A DNA stretch of 64,000 bases. Origin: Cellulomonas sp. P24 (GTDB lineage: Bacteria; Actinomycetota; Actinomycetes; Actinomycetales; Cellulomonadaceae). The first letter of the stretch is position 1. Each line of letters starts with the position of its first letter. A program made the position numbers and the translations under genes. The notes below the pieces were generated by a model. The model ran no database searches. It had not been told where the DNA came from and saw only the letters and a list, made by a program, of their open reading frames with translations. Shown here one piece after another: positions 3-9,582 of the stretch. The stretch spans positions 4,092,001-4,156,000 of the forward strand of contig NZ_JAJDFX010000002.1 of assembly GCF_024704385.1 (NCBI RefSeq), written 5' to 3'.

Positions 3-122
3 GCCGAGATCCCACCGGCCATGCTCGCCGGGGTCCTGGGCCTGAAAGCCTCCCAGGTGGTCCGGCACACCACACGCGCCGGCGGCGACTGGGCGCAGTA
101 CGCTGCCGACCGGGCAACCTGA
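3..122 (+). CDS. C-terminal tail of a probable tyrosine recombinase (5' end outside window)
   Basis: The frame is open from the window edge and stops at 120-122. It gives about 39 residues, with LLGLKASQVVRHT-like helix residues followed by GGDWAQYAADRA. Tails of this form (an LGL helix followed by DW..Y...R) are common at the C-terminus of actinobacterial tyrosine recombinases found in mobile DNA; the catalytic residues would lie upstream of the window. Too little is visible to be sure of the family. It suggests that other mobile DNA abuts the left side of the window. Confidence 0.45.
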   Translation, partial: AEIPPAMLAGVLGLKASQVVRHTTRAGGDWAQYAADRAT

Positions 123-329
123 ACCGTCACGGGTGAGCGGGGGTGGTCACGAGTTCCATATGCGGAGCCATGCGGTGTGGATGCGCGCCGCAGGGCCGAT
201 GCCAGCCTGCCAGCCAACCCCAGGCCGGCCAGGAACCATTAGAGAAGACTGATCAGGGGTCGACGCCAGAGGGTCAGGATTCAGCCGACGTTGAGAGTGG
301 TCGCCGGTGCGAAACTCGGGTAACCTGTG

Positions 330-505
330 CGCGCAAGGTGCCAGTCGTTAGCTGAGGCTCCTTCGCGGAAACAAGCCAGCGACCCCGAACGTCCAGAGAC
401 GCCCCGGGTCAGGACAGGCTACCCCGACCTAAGGGGTAGTCCCGATTGGCTCCCGCTATGGCGGGTTGACGCCGCGAAGTGCCAAAGGTCTTACGAGGAC
501 GAGGA
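330..505 (+). promoter_or_regulatory. M-box (ykoK leader) magnesium riboswitch
   Basis: The conserved M-box blocks occur in the right order: GTTAGCTGAGGCTCCT at 347-362, CGTCCAGAGACGCC at 390-403 followed by GGGTCA, a variable arm at 420-445 (TACCCC / GGGGTA), CGCTATGGCGGG near 454-465, and AGTGCCAAAGGTCTTACGA at 478-496. In the known family this RNA folds on Mg2+ and shuts off downstream Mg2+ transport genes. It sits about 260 bases before an NRAMP-related transporter on the same strand. GC-rich hairpin sequence at 525-570 could be the expression platform, but I cannot tell whether it acts on transcription or on translation. Confidence 0.88.
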
Positions 506-766
506 ACCCCTGACCGTTCGGTCGGACCTCGCGCGTGCGCCCCGCGAAGCGAGGGGAGCGCGTCGATGAACGAAGGCCATAGTCCGCGTCTCCTGCTCAG
601 TCCAGCCGCCCTCTAGGCGTGCCGGGCCTGTTGCCCCTGGGTTGTCGCTGCGACACTCGGCCATGTCGAGTTCGCAGGGACTTTCTGGCGCACGAACGCA
701 GGAGAACCGCCAGCCCGCTTCACTTCCGTAGACCAATCCGCACACCAGCGCGGAGGGCAGGTTGAG

Positions 767-2410
767 ATGACCAGCGACACGAGCCCCACACCAGCACAGC
801 GGGAGACCGCGGTTCTTGACTCCGCGCACGTCGGCGACATCGAAGGCGCATTTGGAACGATCCGTCTAGGTGACGACGCTCCGCGTCCGCGGCTCTCGAT
901 GAAGCTGCGCACGCTGCTCGCGATCGTCGGCCCCGGGCTGATCGTCATGGTCGGTGACAACGACGCCGGAGCCTTCGGCACTTACACCGAAGCCGGTCAG
1001 AACTACGGGACGCGCCTGCTGTGGACCCTGCTCCTGCTGGTGCCGGTGCTCTACGTAAACCAGGAGATGGTGCTGCGCCTGGGCGCGGTCACCGGGGTTG
1101 GCCATGCGCGGTTGATCCTGGAGCGGTTCGGCAAGTTCTGGGGCGCGTTCAGCGTGATCGACCTGTTCATCCTCAACGCGCTCACGATCGTCACCGAGTT
1201 CATCGGCATCAGCCTGGGTCTGCGCTATCTGGGGATCGCCCAGGTCCCGGGGGTGATCATGGCTGCTGTCGTGGTCATCGCGGCGGTGAGCACCGGGTCG
1301 TTCAAGCGGTTCGAGCGCGTGAGCATGGTCCTGGTCGCCGGATCGCTGCTGCTGGTACCGATCTTCTTCATGGTGCACCCGGGCATGGGTCAGATCGCTC
1401 ACGACGTCCTGATCCCCGGCATGCCACCGGGGGCCGAACTGTCGACCGTGATGCTGCTGATCATCGGGATCGTCGGCACCACGGTTGCCCCGTGGCAGCT
1501 GTTCTTCCAGCAGTCCTACGTCATCGACAAGCGGATCACACCTCGGTTCATGAGCTATGAGAAGGTCGATCTGTGGATCGGGATCGTCATGGTGATTGTC
1601 GGCGCCGGGGCGATCATGACGTTCACCTACACGACGTTCGCGGGACATCCCGAGTTCGGCGCCTTCACCGACGCGCTGGGGGTCGCGAAGGGACTGGGCA
1701 CCTACGTGAGCCCCGTGGCCGGTGTCCTGTTCGCGATCGCGCTGATCGATGCGTCGATCATCGGGGCGGCTGCGGTCGGGCTCTCGACGTCGTACGCCCT
1801 TGGTGACGTGCTCGGGCTCAAGCACTCGCTGCACCGCAAGCCACGTGAGGCCAAGGGCTTCTACGCGGTTTTTGCTGGGTTGCTTGTGGTCGCCGCCACG
1901 GTCGTGCTGATCCCGGGCAGCCCGCTCGGCCTGCTCACCGTGGGTGTCCAGACCCTTGCTGGGGTGCTGCTTCCGTCTGCGACGGTGTTCCTGCTGCTTC
2001 TGTGCAACGACAAGCAGGTCCTCGGACCGTGGGTCAACGGCCGGTGGCTGAACCTGTTCACCGGGCTAGTCATCGCCGTGCTCGTGATGATGTCCATCGT
2101 GCTCACTGCGAGCGTCCTGTACCCGAACATCACGGCGGTGACGATTCTGTGGATACTAGGAGGTGGCAGCGCAATCGCCATCGCGGTCGGAGTCGGTCTC
2201 GCGGTTCACAGGCGTCGCCATCCGGCTGCGACGGTGGCACCGGTCGACAAGAGCCTTCGGGCCAGCTGGCGGATGCCCCCACTGAACCTCCTTGCGTTGC
2301 CGGAGCTCTCAGCAAGCAGGCGCGCGGGACTTTCCGTGCTGCGCACGTATCTGTTCATCGCGATGGCGCTCGTGGTCGTGAGGGTTGTGCAGCTCGCGCT
2401 CGGTCGCTGA
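767..2410 (+). CDS. NRAMP-family transporter of the magnesium (NRMT) type
   Basis: A 547-residue polytopic membrane protein with about eleven hydrophobic segments, starting at ATG 767. The first helix carries GDNDAGAFG (residues 63-71) where classical NRAMP proteins have DPGN. The helix-6 signature reads GTTVAPWQ (237-244), so the metal-binding Met and the His of MPH are replaced by Ala241 and Trp243. Loss of that Met is the hallmark of the NRAMP-related Mg2+ transporters, so Mg2+ rather than Mn2+/Fe2+ is the likely cargo. The M-box upstream and the MgtE-N/CBS gene downstream support this independently. The cytoplasmic C-terminus is short. The assignment to NRAMP is firm; the substrate is inferred. 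Confidence 0.85.
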   Translation: MTSDTSPTPAQRETAVLDSAHVGDIEGAFGTIRLGDDAPRPRLSMKLRTLLAIVGPGLIVMVGDNDAGAFGTYTEAGQNYGTRLLWTLLLLVPVLYVNQEMVLRLGAVTGVGHARLILERFGKFWGAFSVIDLFILNALTIVTEFIGISLGLRYLGIAQVPGVIMAAVVVIAAVSTGSFKRFERVSMVLVAGSLLLVPIFFMVHPGMGQIAHDVLIPGMPPGAELSTVMLLIIGIVGTTVAPWQLFFQQSYVIDKRITPRFMSYEKVDLWIGIVMVIVGAGAIMTFTYTTFAGHPEFGAFTDALGVAKGLGTYVSPVAGVLFAIALIDASIIGAAAVGLSTSYALGDVLGLKHSLHRKPREAKGFYAVFAGLLVVAATVVLIPGSPLGLLTVGVQTLAGVLLPSATVFLLLLCNDKQVLGPWVNGRWLNLFTGLVIAVLVMMSIVLTASVLYPNITAVTILWILGGGSAIAIAVGVGLAVHRRRHPAATVAPVDKSLRASWRMPPLNLLALPELSASRRAGLSVLRTYLFIAMALVVVRVVQLALGR

Positions 2411-2476
2411 GTGATCTCCCCCTACTCTCAACTCATGCGCGGCCCGCGCTCGCTACGTTCCGGAAAGGGTCTGGTC

Positions 2477-3748
2477 GTGAACAACATCGTCGTCGAGGAC
2501 GCTGAGCTTCCCGTCGTCTACCTGTCGTCTTTGCTCAGGCACCCGGTGGTCGACATGAAGGGCAAGCCGCTCGGCAAGCTTGCCGATGCGATTGTCAGAC
2601 TCAGAGCCGGTGAGTACCCCCAGGTCAGCGCGCTGGTCGTGCAGGTCTCTTCGGGCGTCGTCTACGTTCCGATTGCTGACGTCTCGGCGATGAGCGGGGA
2701 GAGGATCGAGCTCTCCACAGCGCGGTTGGACGTGCGTCCGTTCGAGCGCCGGGCCGGTGAGGTCCTGTTGCGAGCGGACGTGCTCGGCCACCGGTTGATC
2801 GACGTTGAGCACGCGGCTCTCGTGAGGGCCAACGACATTTTGCTGACCCGGGTCCAGGATCAGTGGGTCGTCACGGGTCTCGACGTACGCGGGAGGGCCT
2901 GGTGGGGCGGGGCGAAGAGCAACGGAAGTCACCACTCGCGTGACTGGCGCTCGTTCGAAGCCTTGATCGGGCATGAGCCTTCGGTGCTCGTACGATCCAC
3001 GTTCGGTCAGCTGCAGCGCCTCAAAGCCGCCCAGATCGCCGACCTGATCGAGACGGCCTCGGTGAAGGAGCAGGACGAGCTCCTGACTCAGGTCCATGAG
3101 GACCCCGAGCTTGAGGCCGACGTCTTCGAGGAGCTCGACGAGGACCGGCTCACGCAGCTCTTGCGGACTCGCAGCGCAGCGGACGTTGCATCCGTCCTTG
3201 ACCGCATGCGTGCCGATGACGCGGCCGATGCCGTCACGGACCTGCCCCAGGACCGCCGTCAAGCAGTCCTGGACCTGCTGAACGAGCCCCAACGCGTCAA
3301 GGTCATGAGTCTCCTCGGCTACCACGACGCCACGGCAGGTGGGCTGATGGGGGTGGAGTTCATTCGGATCTCCGAGAATGGGACCGTTGATGACGCGATC
3401 TCCCTCGTGCGCGCGGCGACCGGGCATCAGCCCGAGGCCCTGACCAGCATCTTCAGTGTGGATGACGAAGATCGACTGGTCGGCGCGATCAGCCTGGTTC
3501 GGGCGCTCCAGGTCCCCCCGAGCTCTCTGCTTCGCGATGTCGCGGAGTCCGACCCCGTGCACGCCGCGCCCCAGGATGACATCGTCGACGTGACGACCCG
3601 GATGGCCGACTTCAACCTCCTGGTGCTGCCCGTGGTTGACGACCGCGGACGCATCATCGGTGTCGTCACCGTCGACGACGCGCTCGAAGCGGCCCTGCCC
3701 CAAGACTGGCGCCGCAGGGAACCACAGTCACACGTGTCATCGACCTGA
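2477..3748 (+). CDS. Soluble MgtE N-domain / CBS-pair protein, probable Mg2+ sensor
   Basis: Domains in order: a PRC-barrel-like N-terminus (HPVVDMKGKPLGKLAD), a second barrel-like segment, the superhelical MgtE N domain (ELLTQVHEDPE...DDAADAVTDLP), the AGGLM junction, and a CBS pair ending VVTVDDALEAAL. The membrane channel domain that follows the CBS pair in true MgtE is absent, so this cannot transport by itself. In MgtE these domains bind Mg2+ and gate the pore; here they may sense Mg2+ for the adjacent NRAMP-type transporter. GTG 2477 is preferred because GGAAAGGG lies just upstream; the frame is open back to GTG 2411, right after the transporter stop. Confidence 0.82.
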   Translation: MNNIVVEDAELPVVYLSSLLRHPVVDMKGKPLGKLADAIVRLRAGEYPQVSALVVQVSSGVVYVPIADVSAMSGERIELSTARLDVRPFERRAGEVLLRADVLGHRLIDVEHAALVRANDILLTRVQDQWVVTGLDVRGRAWWGGAKSNGSHHSRDWRSFEALIGHEPSVLVRSTFGQLQRLKAAQIADLIETASVKEQDELLTQVHEDPELEADVFEELDEDRLTQLLRTRSAADVASVLDRMRADDAADAVTDLPQDRRQAVLDLLNEPQRVKVMSLLGYHDATAGGLMGVEFIRISENGTVDDAISLVRAATGHQPEALTSIFSVDDEDRLVGAISLVRALQVPPSSLLRDVAESDPVHAAPQDDIVDVTTRMADFNLLVLPVVDDRGRIIGVVTVDDALEAALPQDWRRREPQSHVSST

Positions 3749-4455: not shown

Positions 4456-4576
4456 CGACGCAGGCGCGGCTAGCCCGACCCGACACATCACTCCGCCGTG
4501 AACGCCGCAGGCGGGTCGGGCCCCTTGCGTGGACGGTTGCGCTACCTCGCCCCGCGGTCGTGAACCCGCCATCTCA

Positions 4577-4786
4577 CTACTTGACGGCCACCGCCGCCTG
4601 TCGCGCGTCGACCTCCAGCGCGAGCACGTAGCTCGCCATGGCAGCGTGGTAGATCGCGACGCTGAGGAGTTCGGCCCGGTCCGCCGGTTCGGGCGAGTCG
4701 ATCGCTCGCCCGTACGCGGCCTCGGCTTGGACGAAATGGTCCTGATGTGTCGACTTGCCCATGACTGCATCATTCTCTGTTCGCAT
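4577..4786 (-). CDS. Small hypothetical protein
   Basis: 69 residues if translation starts at 4786; a shorter 61-residue form would start at ATG 4762 (MGKSTHQDHFVQAEAAYGRA). The sequence is alanine-rich and predicted helical (ELLSVAIYHAAMASYVLALEVDARQAAVAV), with no membrane segment. Composition looks protein-like, but there is no recognisable family and the ribosome binding site is weak. It lies alone on the minus strand between gene fragments. Confidence 0.4.
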   Translation of the reverse strand: MRTENDAVMGKSTHQDHFVQAEAAYGRAIDSPEPADRAELLSVAIYHAAMASYVLALEVDARQAAVAVK

Positions 4787-5169: not shown

Positions 5170-5628
5170 TCAGTTTTCACCGCGGCATCGACACACCAGG
5201 ACGCGGTCGGCCACGGCGACCTCGTCGACCGAGATCTCGACCACACCCCCGTCCACGAGACGCCGCGCGGTGCGGGGCGCGCGCTCGAGGAGCAGGCTCA
5301 GCTCTCGCCGCGCGCGGACTGCCGCCCGATCCTCGAGCAGCTGACCCGTGGCGAGCATCACCGTGATCACTGCACCCGCGAACGGCTCGCCCACCCACAA
5401 GGCACCGGCGAGCGCGAGCAGGGCGATCACGTCGACGCTGAGCCGACCACCCCGGATCGCGATCGCCGTCCACGCCACCGAGAACACCAGCCCCAGCACT
5501 GTCCCGGCAACCCAGAGCGCCTCACCCCACTCGCCCGGTCCCACCAGCCAGAAGACCCCGCCGACGAGCAGCAGCCCGGTGGAAACGACAAACAGCAACA
5601 GCTCGACTCGTTCTCGTACCCACGTCAT
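5170..5628 (-). pseudogene. Truncated heavy-metal (P1B-type) ATPase, N-terminal part only
   Basis: From ATG 5628 the frame encodes MTWVRERVELLLFVVSTGLL, further membrane helices, and then RGGRLSVDVIALLALAGALW and the actuator-domain start RRELSLLLERAPRTARRL...VDEVAVADRVLV. These are typical of Zn/Cd/Co P1B-ATPases. The frame then turns to unrelated residues (CRCRGEN) and stops, where a full protein continues for about 450 more residues with TGE and DKTGT. Neither motif is present, so it cannot pump. A 3' deletion is the simplest cause. Confidence 0.78.
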
Positions 5629-5899
5629 GAAGCCACCCTGACGACACCCCCCCGCCATGTGTCTACGCGCACGTCAGGGTGTGGCACGCCTCATCCTCCT
5701 TCGCTGCTGGGGATGGGCGGCGCGCGGCAGCGAGCCCAAGGCGCAACCTGACTGCCCATCGATCAGGACCGCGATCAGCGCGAGAGGCAGCGTGACGTTC
5801 TGCAACGTGGTGCGCCGAGCCTGTCTGGCGGCGATGCGATCCCGGCTCGAGCCGGTCGCCGAGGCATCGATGTGCCGCCGGAACGCGCACGAGCCGCGG

Positions 5900-6935: not shown

Positions 6936-6962
6936 CCGTAACAACACGGTGAGATGTTACGG
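6936..6962. promoter_or_regulatory. Perfect inverted repeat between divergent genes, probable operator
   Basis: CCGTAACA (6936-6943) and TGTTACGG (6955-6962) form a perfect 8-base inverted repeat with an 11-base spacer. It lies between the PAP2 start (6905) and the P-type ATPase ATG (6973), where a dimeric regulator could control both. The binding protein is unknown. Confidence 0.55.
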
Positions 6963-6972
6963 TTGTTTCATC

Positions 6973-9582
6973 ATGCGTACCGGCACTGGGGAACACGGCA
7001 TCCGCGAACCGCGGACCTCCGCCATCGAAAGGGACCGCGCTGCGTGGCATGCGCTGCCACCAGGTGATGTCGCCACGATGCTCGGAGTCGACGACCAGGG
7101 TCTGAGCAGTGCCCGCGCCGAGCAGGTGGCCTTGGAGCACGGTCTCAACCTGGCCGCCCCACCCCGACGCGAGTCGTGGCTGAGGGCGCTCGTCGAGTCG
7201 TTCATCGAGCCGCTTCAGCTGTTGCTCGTCGCGGTCGCAGTGCTCAGCTTTGTCTTCGGCGAAGCGGTCGACGGGCTGGCCATCCTCGGCGTCATCGTGC
7301 TCAGCGCTGCCGTCGAGACCGCGTCCGAACTGCGAGCCGCCCGGTCCATCGAGGCCCTTCACGACCTGACCGCCCCGAGCGCGCACGTGCGCCGCGACGG
7401 GCGGCCCATCACCGTTCCGGCCACGCAGGTGGTCCCCGGGGACGTGCTGTTGCTGGAGCCTGGCGACATCGCTCCCGCCGACGCTCGCATTCTGGACGCC
7501 CACTCGCTGAGCGCCGCGGAGGCTTCGCTGACTGGCGAACCGGTCCCGGTGCACAAGAGCGTCCACCCCGTGCCCGCGGGTACACCGCTGGCCGAACGCT
7601 CCAGTGTTGTGCACGCCGGCAGTGTCATCACCTCCGGCACCGGCACCGCCGTGGTGTTCGCGACTGGGCAGAACAGCGAGCTCGGGCAGATCGCCGCGCT
7701 GGCCGCAGCCCAGCGCGAACCGGCCACTCCGCTGCAGATCGGAATGGGACAGTTGGCACGCATTGTCTTGGTCGCCGCCGTCGTGGTGTCGGTCGGTGTG
7801 CCCGCCCTCGGGCTGCTGCTGGGGCAACCGGTCAAGGAGATGCTACTGACTGGGCTGTCGATGGCGTTCGCGACAGTCCCAGAGGAACTGCCCATCTTGG
7901 TGACCGTCCTGCTCGCCGTCGGCGGCCGGGGACTGGCCCAACGCGGCGCACTGCTGCGCTGGCTTTCCGTGGGTGAGGCCATGGGCTCAGTGACCAGCCT
8001 GCTGACCGACAAGACCGGCACCCTGACCCGCAACGAGCTGAGCGTGGCCCGTATCGACGGCGGCATCGCCCCCGTCCTAGCGGTCGCCCTGGCCGCCCAG
8101 GGCACCAGCCACACCCGCGGCGCGCGGAGCCGCGAACCGCTGGAACAGGCCGTCGCCGCCAAGGCCGCCGAGCTCGGCATGGGCAGCGCCCTGGCCGGAC
8201 CCGGCACCCGAGTGGTGGCGAGTTGGCCGTTCGATCAACACACCCGCCTGCGAGCCACCGCTTGGGCGGACATCGACGGGAACACCCAGGTTGCGGTCGC
8301 GGGGGCCCCCGAAGCTGTCCTGGCCGCGTGCGCCGCCGCCGACCAGGCGGCATGGCGGGAGCGGGTGGAGTCCGCGCTGCGGTCCGGTGAGCGCACCCTG
8401 GCGTATGCCACCGCCGCCTACGAGCCCGAAAGCCGGACCATCCCACGCGAGGTCGGGACCGATGGTGCGCCGATACCTGCGACCGGGCTGCAGCTGGTTG
8501 GCCTGGTCACGTTCGTCGACCCGGTCCGCGAGGGGGTGCCGGCGGCGGTGGCCGAACTTCACCGGGCCGGGATCGCCACGCTGGTGGTGACCGGAGACCA
8601 CCCGGCCGCCGGCCGCGCCGCCGCCGCCGCCGCCGGGCTGCCCGAGGGGCACACCCTCACAGGTGGCGACGCCCTGGCAGCACGCAGCGACGACGACCTC
8701 GCCCCGGACCTGGTGCACGGGACCGTCATCGGTCGCTGCACCCCGGCCGACAAGCTGAGGCTGGTGCGGCTACTGCAGAGCCGCGGCGAGGTCGTGGCGG
8801 TCACCGGTGACGGTGTCAACGACGCGCCGGCGCTGTCCGCGGCCGACGTCGGCATCGCGATGGGGCGGCGCGGCACGCAGATGGCGCGGCAGGTGGCCGG
8901 CCTCGTGCTCACTGACGACGCGTATCCCACCGTCGCCGCGGCCGTGGAGACGGGGCGCAGCATCTTCTCCCAGCTCCGTCGCGCCGTGTCGTTCTACTTG
9001 GGCGCCAAGCTTGCACTGGTCGCGGCCATGGTCACCGCCATTGTTGCCGGGTTGCCGATCCCGTACGCGCCCGTGCAGATCGTGGTGCTTGAGCTGTTCA
9101 TGGACATCGGCGCATCTATGGCGTTCGTGTCCGAGCCCGCGGCACCCGCCGCGATGCGGCGGCCGCCGCGGCCCCGGACCGCGTCCCTGGTCGACGGCGC
9201 GTTCGCCACGGCGACCATCTTGGTGGGCGCCGTGCTGGGCGCAGCAGCGACCGCCGCGTACCTGCTCGTGCACTCCGGTGGTGCCAGCACCGGGCAGGCA
9301 CGGTGCGCCGCGCTGGTGGTGTGGCTGGCCGGGCACGTCGCTGTGGCCTGGTCGCTGCGGGCCCGCCCGGGGTTGTCGTGGCGCGCCAACCCCTACTTCC
9401 CGCTGTGGGCCGGCTCAGCCGTCGCCCTGGCAGCCGCCGCCGCCCTGACCCCCGCCGCCGTCCTGGTCAGGGTTGAACCGCTGGTCGGGGTGCAGGTCGT
9501 CATCGTCGGCGCGTGTGCGGCCGCATGCGCGCTGGTCGCGTGGCTCGCTCGACCCCTGCTTCGCATCGGCACGGCGCTCTAG
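6973..9582 (+). CDS. Cation-translocating P-type ATPase
   Basis: 869 residues from ATG 6973; an upstream in-frame GTG (6949) would put the inverted repeat inside the coding region. It has an N-terminal cation-ATPase segment, two helices, an actuator domain with LTGEPVPVHK, helix 4 with VPEELPILVTV, phosphorylation site DKTGTLT (Asp near 346), hinge TGDGVNDAPAL (near 610) and about six C-terminal helices. The layout is that of P2-like transporters (Ca2+, Mn2+, Mg2+ or Na+), not of P1B metal pumps. PEELP and the helix-6 sequence LELFMDIGASMAF are non-standard, so the ion is uncertain. It is intact, unlike the ATPase fragment at 5170-5628. Confidence 0.87.
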   Translation: MRTGTGEHGIREPRTSAIERDRAAWHALPPGDVATMLGVDDQGLSSARAEQVALEHGLNLAAPPRRESWLRALVESFIEPLQLLLVAVAVLSFVFGEAVDGLAILGVIVLSAAVETASELRAARSIEALHDLTAPSAHVRRDGRPITVPATQVVPGDVLLLEPGDIAPADARILDAHSLSAAEASLTGEPVPVHKSVHPVPAGTPLAERSSVVHAGSVITSGTGTAVVFATGQNSELGQIAALAAAQREPATPLQIGMGQLARIVLVAAVVVSVGVPALGLLLGQPVKEMLLTGLSMAFATVPEELPILVTVLLAVGGRGLAQRGALLRWLSVGEAMGSVTSLLTDKTGTLTRNELSVARIDGGIAPVLAVALAAQGTSHTRGARSREPLEQAVAAKAAELGMGSALAGPGTRVVASWPFDQHTRLRATAWADIDGNTQVAVAGAPEAVLAACAAADQAAWRERVESALRSGERTLAYATAAYEPESRTIPREVGTDGAPIPATGLQLVGLVTFVDPVREGVPAAVAELHRAGIATLVVTGDHPAAGRAAAAAAGLPEGHTLTGGDALAARSDDDLAPDLVHGTVIGRCTPADKLRLVRLLQSRGEVVAVTGDGVNDAPALSAADVGIAMGRRGTQMARQVAGLVLTDDAYPTVAAAVETGRSIFSQLRRAVSFYLGAKLALVAAMVTAIVAGLPIPYAPVQIVVLELFMDIGASMAFVSEPAAPAAMRRPPRPRTASLVDGAFATATILVGAVLGAAATAAYLLVHSGGASTGQARCAALVVWLAGHVAVAWSLRARPGLSWRANPYFPLWAGSAVALAAAAALTPAAVLVRVEPLVGVQVVIVGACAAACALVAWLARPLLRIGTAL

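Follow-up and report, generated by a model that had tools for sequence, protein, structure and literature searches.

Shin et al. 2014 (PMC4072509) described M-box riboswitches ahead of Nramp-related genes, chiefly of Clostridia and Deltaproteobacteria. The Nramp-related proteins of C. acetobutylicum transport Mg2+, most members of the group have an MgtE-N-like neighbour, and a riboswitch-free relative adjoining an MgtE-N gene probably serves Mn2+ uptake (PMC4072509). The actinobacterial protein EleNRMT of Eggerthella lenta has been solved and assayed, and it carries both Mg2+ and Mn2+ (PMC8806188). The published NRMT signature is DxxG-TxxA/T. In mycobacteria, a "Mn2+-type" M-box class is accompanied by a short upstream open reading frame (uORF) after the M-box, uORF2, which is termed mycobacteria-specific and whose role is called unclear (D'Halluin et al. 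2026, PMC12810186). Ahead of mgtA, low Mg2+ makes ribosomes dissociate at the EPDP motif in the leader peptide MgtL, which prevents Rho-dependent termination (PMC11282234). Here we analyse a 64,000-nucleotide stretch of Cellulomonas sp. P24 (contig NZ_JAJDFX010000002.1, positions 4,092,001 to 4,156,000; hereafter the window, in whose numbering coordinates are given), where an M-box, a short leader ORF, an NRMT-clade transporter gene and an MgtE_N/CBS gene follow one another on the + strand.

The arrangement of M-box, NRMT and MgtE-N genes is not new, as it was already in print in 2014 (PMC4072509), and the M-box/NRMT pair of the window adds one more case to a known type. What appears to be new is the short ORF between the M-box and the transporter gene, and its AGU codons, outside mycobacteria. 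Among the open-licence papers listed in our searches, judged by titles and abstract openings, none describes the ORF outside mycobacteria. An earlier note on this DNA, which did not mention the ORF, had claimed new genetic evidence for NRMT function in actinobacteria; that claim is overtaken by the published work on the clade (PMC4072509) and on EleNRMT of Eggerthella lenta (PMC8806188).

A short leader ORF ahead of NRMT genes

The ORF at 566-616 (+) encodes MNEGHSPRLLLSPAAL and reads ATG AAC GAA GGC CAT AGT CCG CGT CTC CTG CTC AGT CCA GCC GCC CTC TAG. Its core is GGC CAT AGT CCG (G-H-S-P), with Pro at residue 7. The acidic and proline residues E3 and P7 make a weak instance of the pattern described below, and two of its codons are AGU. 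We presume from the sequence that GAGGGGAG at 551-558 (+) is its ribosome-binding site. The pattern RTGN6GGNCATAGTC has two matches in the genome, each preceding an NRMT gene, and none in the control.

Counterparts occupy the same position in the nearest relatives (MNEGHSPRLLLVPVAL, MKESHSPRLLLVPTAF and MSESHSPRFRLSTMTA). Streptomyces loci carry MDCSSSSPGHSRP... and similar peptides, Arthrobacter carries MNDGHKPSLPS..., and the genomes of family f22, presumed mycobacteria, carry MSPGDSPYPKS.... The M-box is not a constant companion. Both further NRMT-clade copies of the window's genome have a leader ORF (MNPGHSRLPRT... and MNPGHSCPPSD...) and no M-box was found at them, and the ORF and a similar promoter stretch are kept without M-box in the Streptomyces-like loci L225, L036 and L047. 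Among actinobacteria, similar ORFs occur both in NRMT leaders that have an M-box and in those that lack one; Burkholderiaceae have them in leaders of the M-box-less type. In the latter, where no M-box was found, many ORFs start with MPDPEP, MTDPDP, MPDSDSYP or MNDSDSCP, and part of them show DPEP or DPDP alternation. The C-terminal half of the ORF varies between groups, and the length changes among Streptomycetaceae ORFs are of whole codons.

We surveyed NRMT leaders for uORFs of 8-60 aa that start 500 to 60 nt before the NRMT gene and whose Shine-Dalgarno match is 5/6 or better. A uORF was scored as "acid+Pro" when it had an acidic residue at positions 2-6 plus Pro at 2-9. This rule and the core motif were written after viewing the discovery loci, and the discovery counts are therefore descriptive: 20/28 leaders with M-box, 11/20 M-box-less actinobacterial leaders and 12/34 leaders with proteobacterial titles were acid+Pro, against 3.7-7.6% in control segments that could overlap leaders. 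The rule was fixed ahead of both hold-outs. In the first, acid+Pro uORFs were found in 28/29 Streptomycetaceae leaders (28 with M-box; control 5.4%) and in 20/29 Burkholderiaceae leaders (none with M-box; control 4.7%), or 26/27 and 19/28 after removal of loci identical to discovery ones. In the second, they were found in 16/18 new Streptomycetaceae (antisense control 7.7%) and 16/20 new Burkholderiaceae (0%). Leaders within one family are related, and p values on such counts overstate their independence. Canonical MntH leaders had any uORF in 10/29 cases, an acid+Pro one in 4/29 and the core motif in 0/29.

The family names need a word. "Streptomycetaceae" (the family of G477) and "mycobacteria" (f22) are labels inferred from near relatives and gene content, while "Burkholderiaceae" follows from Paraburkholderia nodosa, the species in whose genome L062 lies. 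L249, L250, L293, L233, L234, L242 and L243 repeat discovery leaders, and L241 and L244 are loci already seen. Omitted rows were L223 (contig end), L240 (short upstream region), L239 and L245 (the genome's own paralogues) and L283 (same locus as L062).

Other small ORFs were noticed in these leaders. At three phylum-level loci with M-box and NRMT, outside the class (L197, L199 and L204), the uORFs start with MDSEPG or MESDPG, which is nearer to the MgtL EPDP motif than the window uORF is. Burkholderiaceae have a second conserved small ORF of ~45-50 aa (e.g. MNFGLLLSNLPHVTESRPHYDAML...) downstream of the leader ORF, ~230-265 nt before NRMT (L281, L291, L293-L296, L301, L302, L360, L362-L365 and L367), and a different one (...LTPQERANLYVSRMPIAVV...) is present in L168, L171, L173, L177 and L181. 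Trial representatives of these extra ORFs had no match in Pfam.

Serine codons of the leader ORF

We checked the reading frame with starts chosen by Shine-Dalgarno match, start codon and ORF length alone, ignoring the peptide. Of 170 distinct leaders, 90 had TAGT within the first 36 nt past the start codon, and its AGT was in frame in 89 of these 90. The in-frame offsets were 8, 11, 14, 17, 20, 23 and 35 nt. A motif that acts solely as RNA would not stay in frame at several distances in this way.

The choice of serine codon was also skewed. In the actinobacterial M-box group (97 distinct leaders), 201/280 serines in codons 2-10 were written AGT, compared with 30/1317 in the NRMT genes of those leaders that have one. 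AGT accounted for 31/45 serines in the M-box-less actinobacterial leaders (n=19) vs 10/459 in NRMT genes, and for 18/43 in the Burkholderiaceae leaders (n=25) vs 31/544; this pooled tally does not include the named proteobacterial discovery leaders. The observation arose in the mixed discovery and first hold-out set, which makes the second hold-out the sole fresh test. There, AGU wrote 44/57 serines in Streptomycetaceae leaders (10/436 in the transporter genes) and 15/26 in Burkholderiaceae leaders (26/388), and AGT was in frame in 46/46 and 15/16 instances, respectively. As controls, AGT was counted at codons 2-10 of the NRMT gene itself (3/151 cases) and in other short ORFs passing the same ribosome-site cut (44/657 and 32/235). 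Given this excess over the controls, selection seems to act on the codon and not merely on the residue. We consider it highly probable that the leader ORF is translated, judging from the conservation of its frame, and that it is under codon-level selection.

The codon bias bears on two other explanations. The ORF might encode a bioactive small peptide, such as a regulator or subunit of the transporter, which is among the suggestions made for Rv1805A. The N-terminal residues are conserved, an M-box-free homologue, Rv0115A, is reported (PMC12810186), and the whole-codon length changes in Streptomycetaceae would suit such a product. However, a peptide function needs no preference for AGU over AGC or UCN, whereas a cis-acting control that depends on decoding would, and the C-terminal half differs among groups. 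We thus regard a peptide function as improbable. Alternatively, the ORF could be a serine- or tRNA-Ser(GCU)-dependent attenuator, which would sense AGU decoding instead of Mg2+ and tie Mg2+ uptake to translation capacity. AGU use is far above the codon usage of the genes, and some leaders have the codon up to two or three times per ORF. Yet the downstream gene and the M-box indicate Mg2+, and the conservation extends beyond AGU to Pro and acidic residues; we give this possibility very little weight.

The M-box operon and related loci

Performing cmscan over the window, we found the M-box (ykoK leader) magnesium riboswitch aptamer at 337-507 (+). It matched model RF00380 over its full length (1-169/169) with 118.4 bits (gathering cut-off 44; E 7.4e-26), and it is the sole M-box match at E <= 0.001 across the 4.42-Mb genome. 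The covariance model thereby bears out the M-box that the earlier note had recognized from blocks at 347-496; the placement it gave ahead of an NRAMP-related gene, with an MgtE-N/CBS gene next, agrees with our coordinates and description. The note had also suggested that M-box and NRAMP pairs be sought in actinobacterial genomes, and such pairs do occur: an NRMT-like gene lies on the same strand within the DNA read at 27/77 M-box loci with downstream DNA (L223 was dropped at a contig end, and several others are cut by contig ends).

The M-box is infrequent in these genomes. It was detected in 5/99 relatives, 26/394 genomes of the class and 34/396 of the phylum, where the class and phylum samples overlap and the filters for large sets miss weak matches. 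It stands upstream of the gene in 28/80 named transporter relatives (the best 80 of at least 578). The titles of these 28 are actinobacterial except for L019, titled Proteobacteria, which matches a contig of the window's genus. Whole-genome Rfam scans of Paraburkholderia, Paludibacterium, Magnetospirillum and Bradyrhizobium genomes detected an M-box in 0/4. A hidden M-box before M-box-less relatives was looked for with a permissive Rfam search at six loci, and none appeared; nhmmer returned weak partial 3' matches alone at M-box-less loci (L068, L043 and L081). The locus L041 (Actinacidiphila oryziradicis) has three M-box matches, at 1778-1946 (-), 3485-3656 (-) and 4497-4666 (+), the two opposite-strand ones lying upstream of the one that precedes NRMT.

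The transporter gene at 767-2410 (+) encodes an NRAMP-related protein of 547 aa (PF01566, 255.3 bits) with the ion-site letters DAGA / TTVA. EleNRMT (PDB 7qia) is its closest solved structure (183.6 bits; next chain 74 bits), and MntH structures score at most 49.3. The protein departs from the strict signature, having TxxA but Ala at the DxxG position. Among 182 collected relatives, 140 have DxxA and 42 DxxG, and we filed the window protein, on its sequence, as a variant NRMT subclade (DxxA-TxxA) and not as a strict signature member. In a tree of 107/183 rows, built without many hold-out rows and without the three nearest relatives (L019, L020 and L022), it falls among NRMT rows, far from the genome's MntH, and groups with a Leifsonia M-box locus. 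The tree is rooted by a single long outgroup branch, so that the root is not firm. On this tree M-box presence requires 13 changes, and at least 8 changes are forced by well-supported branches. We are confident that the window locus is an M-box-controlled NRMT operon.

The departure of the ion-site residue from the signature (DxxA) would fit a transporter that imports chiefly Mn2+ while being controlled by Mg2+. So would two published observations: a riboswitch-free A. capsulatum relative rescued a Mn2+ defect fully, whereas its rescue of a Mg2+ defect was confined to low millimolar Mg2+ (PMC4072509), and EleNRMT also moves Mn2+ (PMC8806188). However, Shin et al. 2014 (PMC4072509) propose that an M-box marks those members of the clade that are specific for Mg2+, and the genome has a separate canonical MntH (ion site DPGN/ATVM). 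We consider a mainly Mn2+-importing role rather unlikely.

The gene at 2411-3748 (+) encodes, by its domain matches, a soluble PRC-MgtE_N-CBS protein (PRC 22.9 bits with a cut-off of 21.2, MgtE_N 63.4, CBS 44.8). Its product matches the MgtE cytosolic domain (2yvy, E 2.4e-23). Where translation starts is uncertain: alignments with the nearest relatives begin at residue 4-9, those with the partners of the paralogues at 31-35.

Further observations concern neighbouring and paralogous loci. In the window's own genome, a third copy of NRMT is broken into two frames (L015, G000:C2:3976000-3986000) and lies within an 8.76-kb stretch that is 99.9% identical to Cellulomonas denverensis (L023; the match spans the gene), which suggests a recent transfer or a shared island. 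A 769-aa P-type ATPase adjoins this broken paralogue. In the window, a fragment at 5170-5658 (-), 74% identical over 145 aa to the start of that ATPase, looks like the remnant of a similar island. Upstream of NRMT in L015, L016, L023 and L049 there is a divergent ArsR-like regulator (PF01022, 24.2 bits with a cut-off of 22 for the L015 protein), and the palindrome TTGCGCAA lies by the presumed promoter; a related TTGCG...CGCAA palindrome is found before Streptomyces NRMT genes with and without M-box. A further P-type ATPase at 6949-9582 (+) scores above the general P-type cut-off (TIGR01494) and below those of its best specific models, with the PMR1-type Ca2+ model first and the Mg2+ type among them.

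Proposed control and known systems

We propose a single operon in which the M-box is followed by the short leader ORF, the NRMT-clade transporter and an MgtE-type cytosolic sensor protein. When Mg2+ is plentiful, the folded M-box would shut the leader down. As Mg2+ falls, the leader ORF would be translated, and the ribosome would slow or drop off at the AGU-Ser/Pro codons (at acid-Pro in Burkholderiaceae), keeping the downstream RNA from a Rho-terminable state, as MgtL does for mgtA. The transporter would then import Mg2+ and possibly Mn2+ too, and the MgtE_N/CBS protein would report cytosolic Mg2+ back to it. At loci without M-box, the leader ORF would act alone.

By analogy with MgtL, the NRMT leader ORF would serve as a Mg2+ checkpoint based on the ribosome, to which many actinobacteria add the M-box. 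As a whole explanation, two-stage Mg2+ control by the M-box and an MgtL-like codon-dependent leader ORF is the account we lean towards, by a little. For the narrower statement that the leader ORF is a cis-acting Mg2+-responsive attenuator, we see the chances as even. It is a tentative idea that NRMT genes of Actinomycetota and Burkholderiaceae share an undescribed Mg2+-responsive leader ORF, whose sensor would be the Mg2+-starved ribosome decoding wobble-read AGU, with selection on AGU beside Pro and acidic residues and an M-box that is optional, gained and lost.

Of these elements, the sequence shows the aptamer and the order of the genes, as well as a leader ORF with frame, start region, acidic/Pro N terminus and AGU serines conserved across related leaders. 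Several results weigh against the proposal. The ribosome site of the window uORF is weak, its best hexamer (554-559) matching AGGAGG at 4/6, below the 5-of-6 cut, and the peptide has a single acidic residue and no EPDP-like run. Among the 34 proteobacterial-titled discovery leaders, 17 had no uORF at that cut and just the 12 counted above were acid+Pro. In a mixed sample of the class, 4/18 were acid+Pro; six of these loci had been seen before, and the other 12 gave 1/12 (L225). At L227-L230, NRMT seems to lie downstream of an MgtE-N gene. The ratio of nonsynonymous to synonymous polymorphism (pN/pS) was 0.63-0.83 in frame vs 0.80-1.21 in the other frames and was not lowest in frame in one of four groups; its support for selection is mild and too weak alone, and it led us to the AGU codon test. 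An unusually stable leader fold was not supported (z -1.00 and 0.60 vs shuffles), and pairing of the upstream segment with either ribosome site stayed at shuffle level (mean z 0.27 and -0.01) in 42 leaders hand-picked from 105 M-box leaders, although such anti-Shine-Dalgarno pairings do occur in individual sequences.

The pairing result also bears on a plainer explanation, an ordinary M-box operon in which the short ORF offers a ribosome site masked by the M-box and its translation fends off Rho, with no signal in the codons. In the uORF2 model, the mycobacterial M-box is indeed proposed to mask the translation start of the uORF, together with Rho-dependent termination (D'Halluin et al. 2026, PMC12810186). 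Consistent with a role for Rho, a simple scan of window positions 100-900 found no intrinsic terminator (0 vs 0.4 in shuffles); the same scan detected no sigma-70-like promoter near the leader. But the masking helix is unsupported in the 42-leader test, and such an operon leaves unexplained both the use of AGU over other serine codons and the presence of the uORF at M-box-less loci. We hold it to be unlikely, more so than the two-stage control.

The leader ORF offers a testable answer to what Rv1805A-type ORFs do, and points to their occurrence beyond mycobacteria. Two-stage control would join two modes of Mg2+ control that have been studied separately, sensing by an aptamer (M-box) and by the ribosome (MgtL). 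If it is true, codon identity and not the peptide is the regulated feature, and the ORF offers a sequence marker for Mg2+-controlled NRMT genes without M-box.

Compared with known systems, the window resembles the M-box/nrmT operons of C. acetobutylicum in its M-box, NRAMP-related transporter and MgtE-N-like gene. Those operons have a terminator-type expression platform, and the available part of their account does not mention a short leader ORF (PMC4072509), whereas the window has one. EleNRMT shares the helix-1 D and the helix-6 TxxA with the window protein, its helix-1 letters being DAGG where the window has DAGA. The uORF2/Rv1805A of M. tuberculosis pe20 is likewise a short Shine-Dalgarno-bearing ORF after an M-box, with a conserved N terminus and Pro7 (PMC12810186). 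The ORF at 566-616 has the same place between M-box and gene, Pro7 and a conserved N terminus, with a weak ribosome site; the link is one of position and motif. Unlike the uORF2 account, in whose main text the word "serine" is absent (PMC12810186), we find that other actinobacterial families, too, have ORFs at this position with a Pro7 core and AGU serines, including at loci without M-box. MgtL of mgtA is similar: it, too, is a short ORF in the leader of a Mg2+ importer gene and has acidic and proline residues near its start (PMC11282234, PMC11552253, PMC6460261). It differs in having no M-box, AGU serines are not part of its account as available in these papers, and the window ORF has no EPDP-type run. 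Many NRMT leader ORFs of Burkholderiaceae, in turn, start close to the MgtL EPDP motif.

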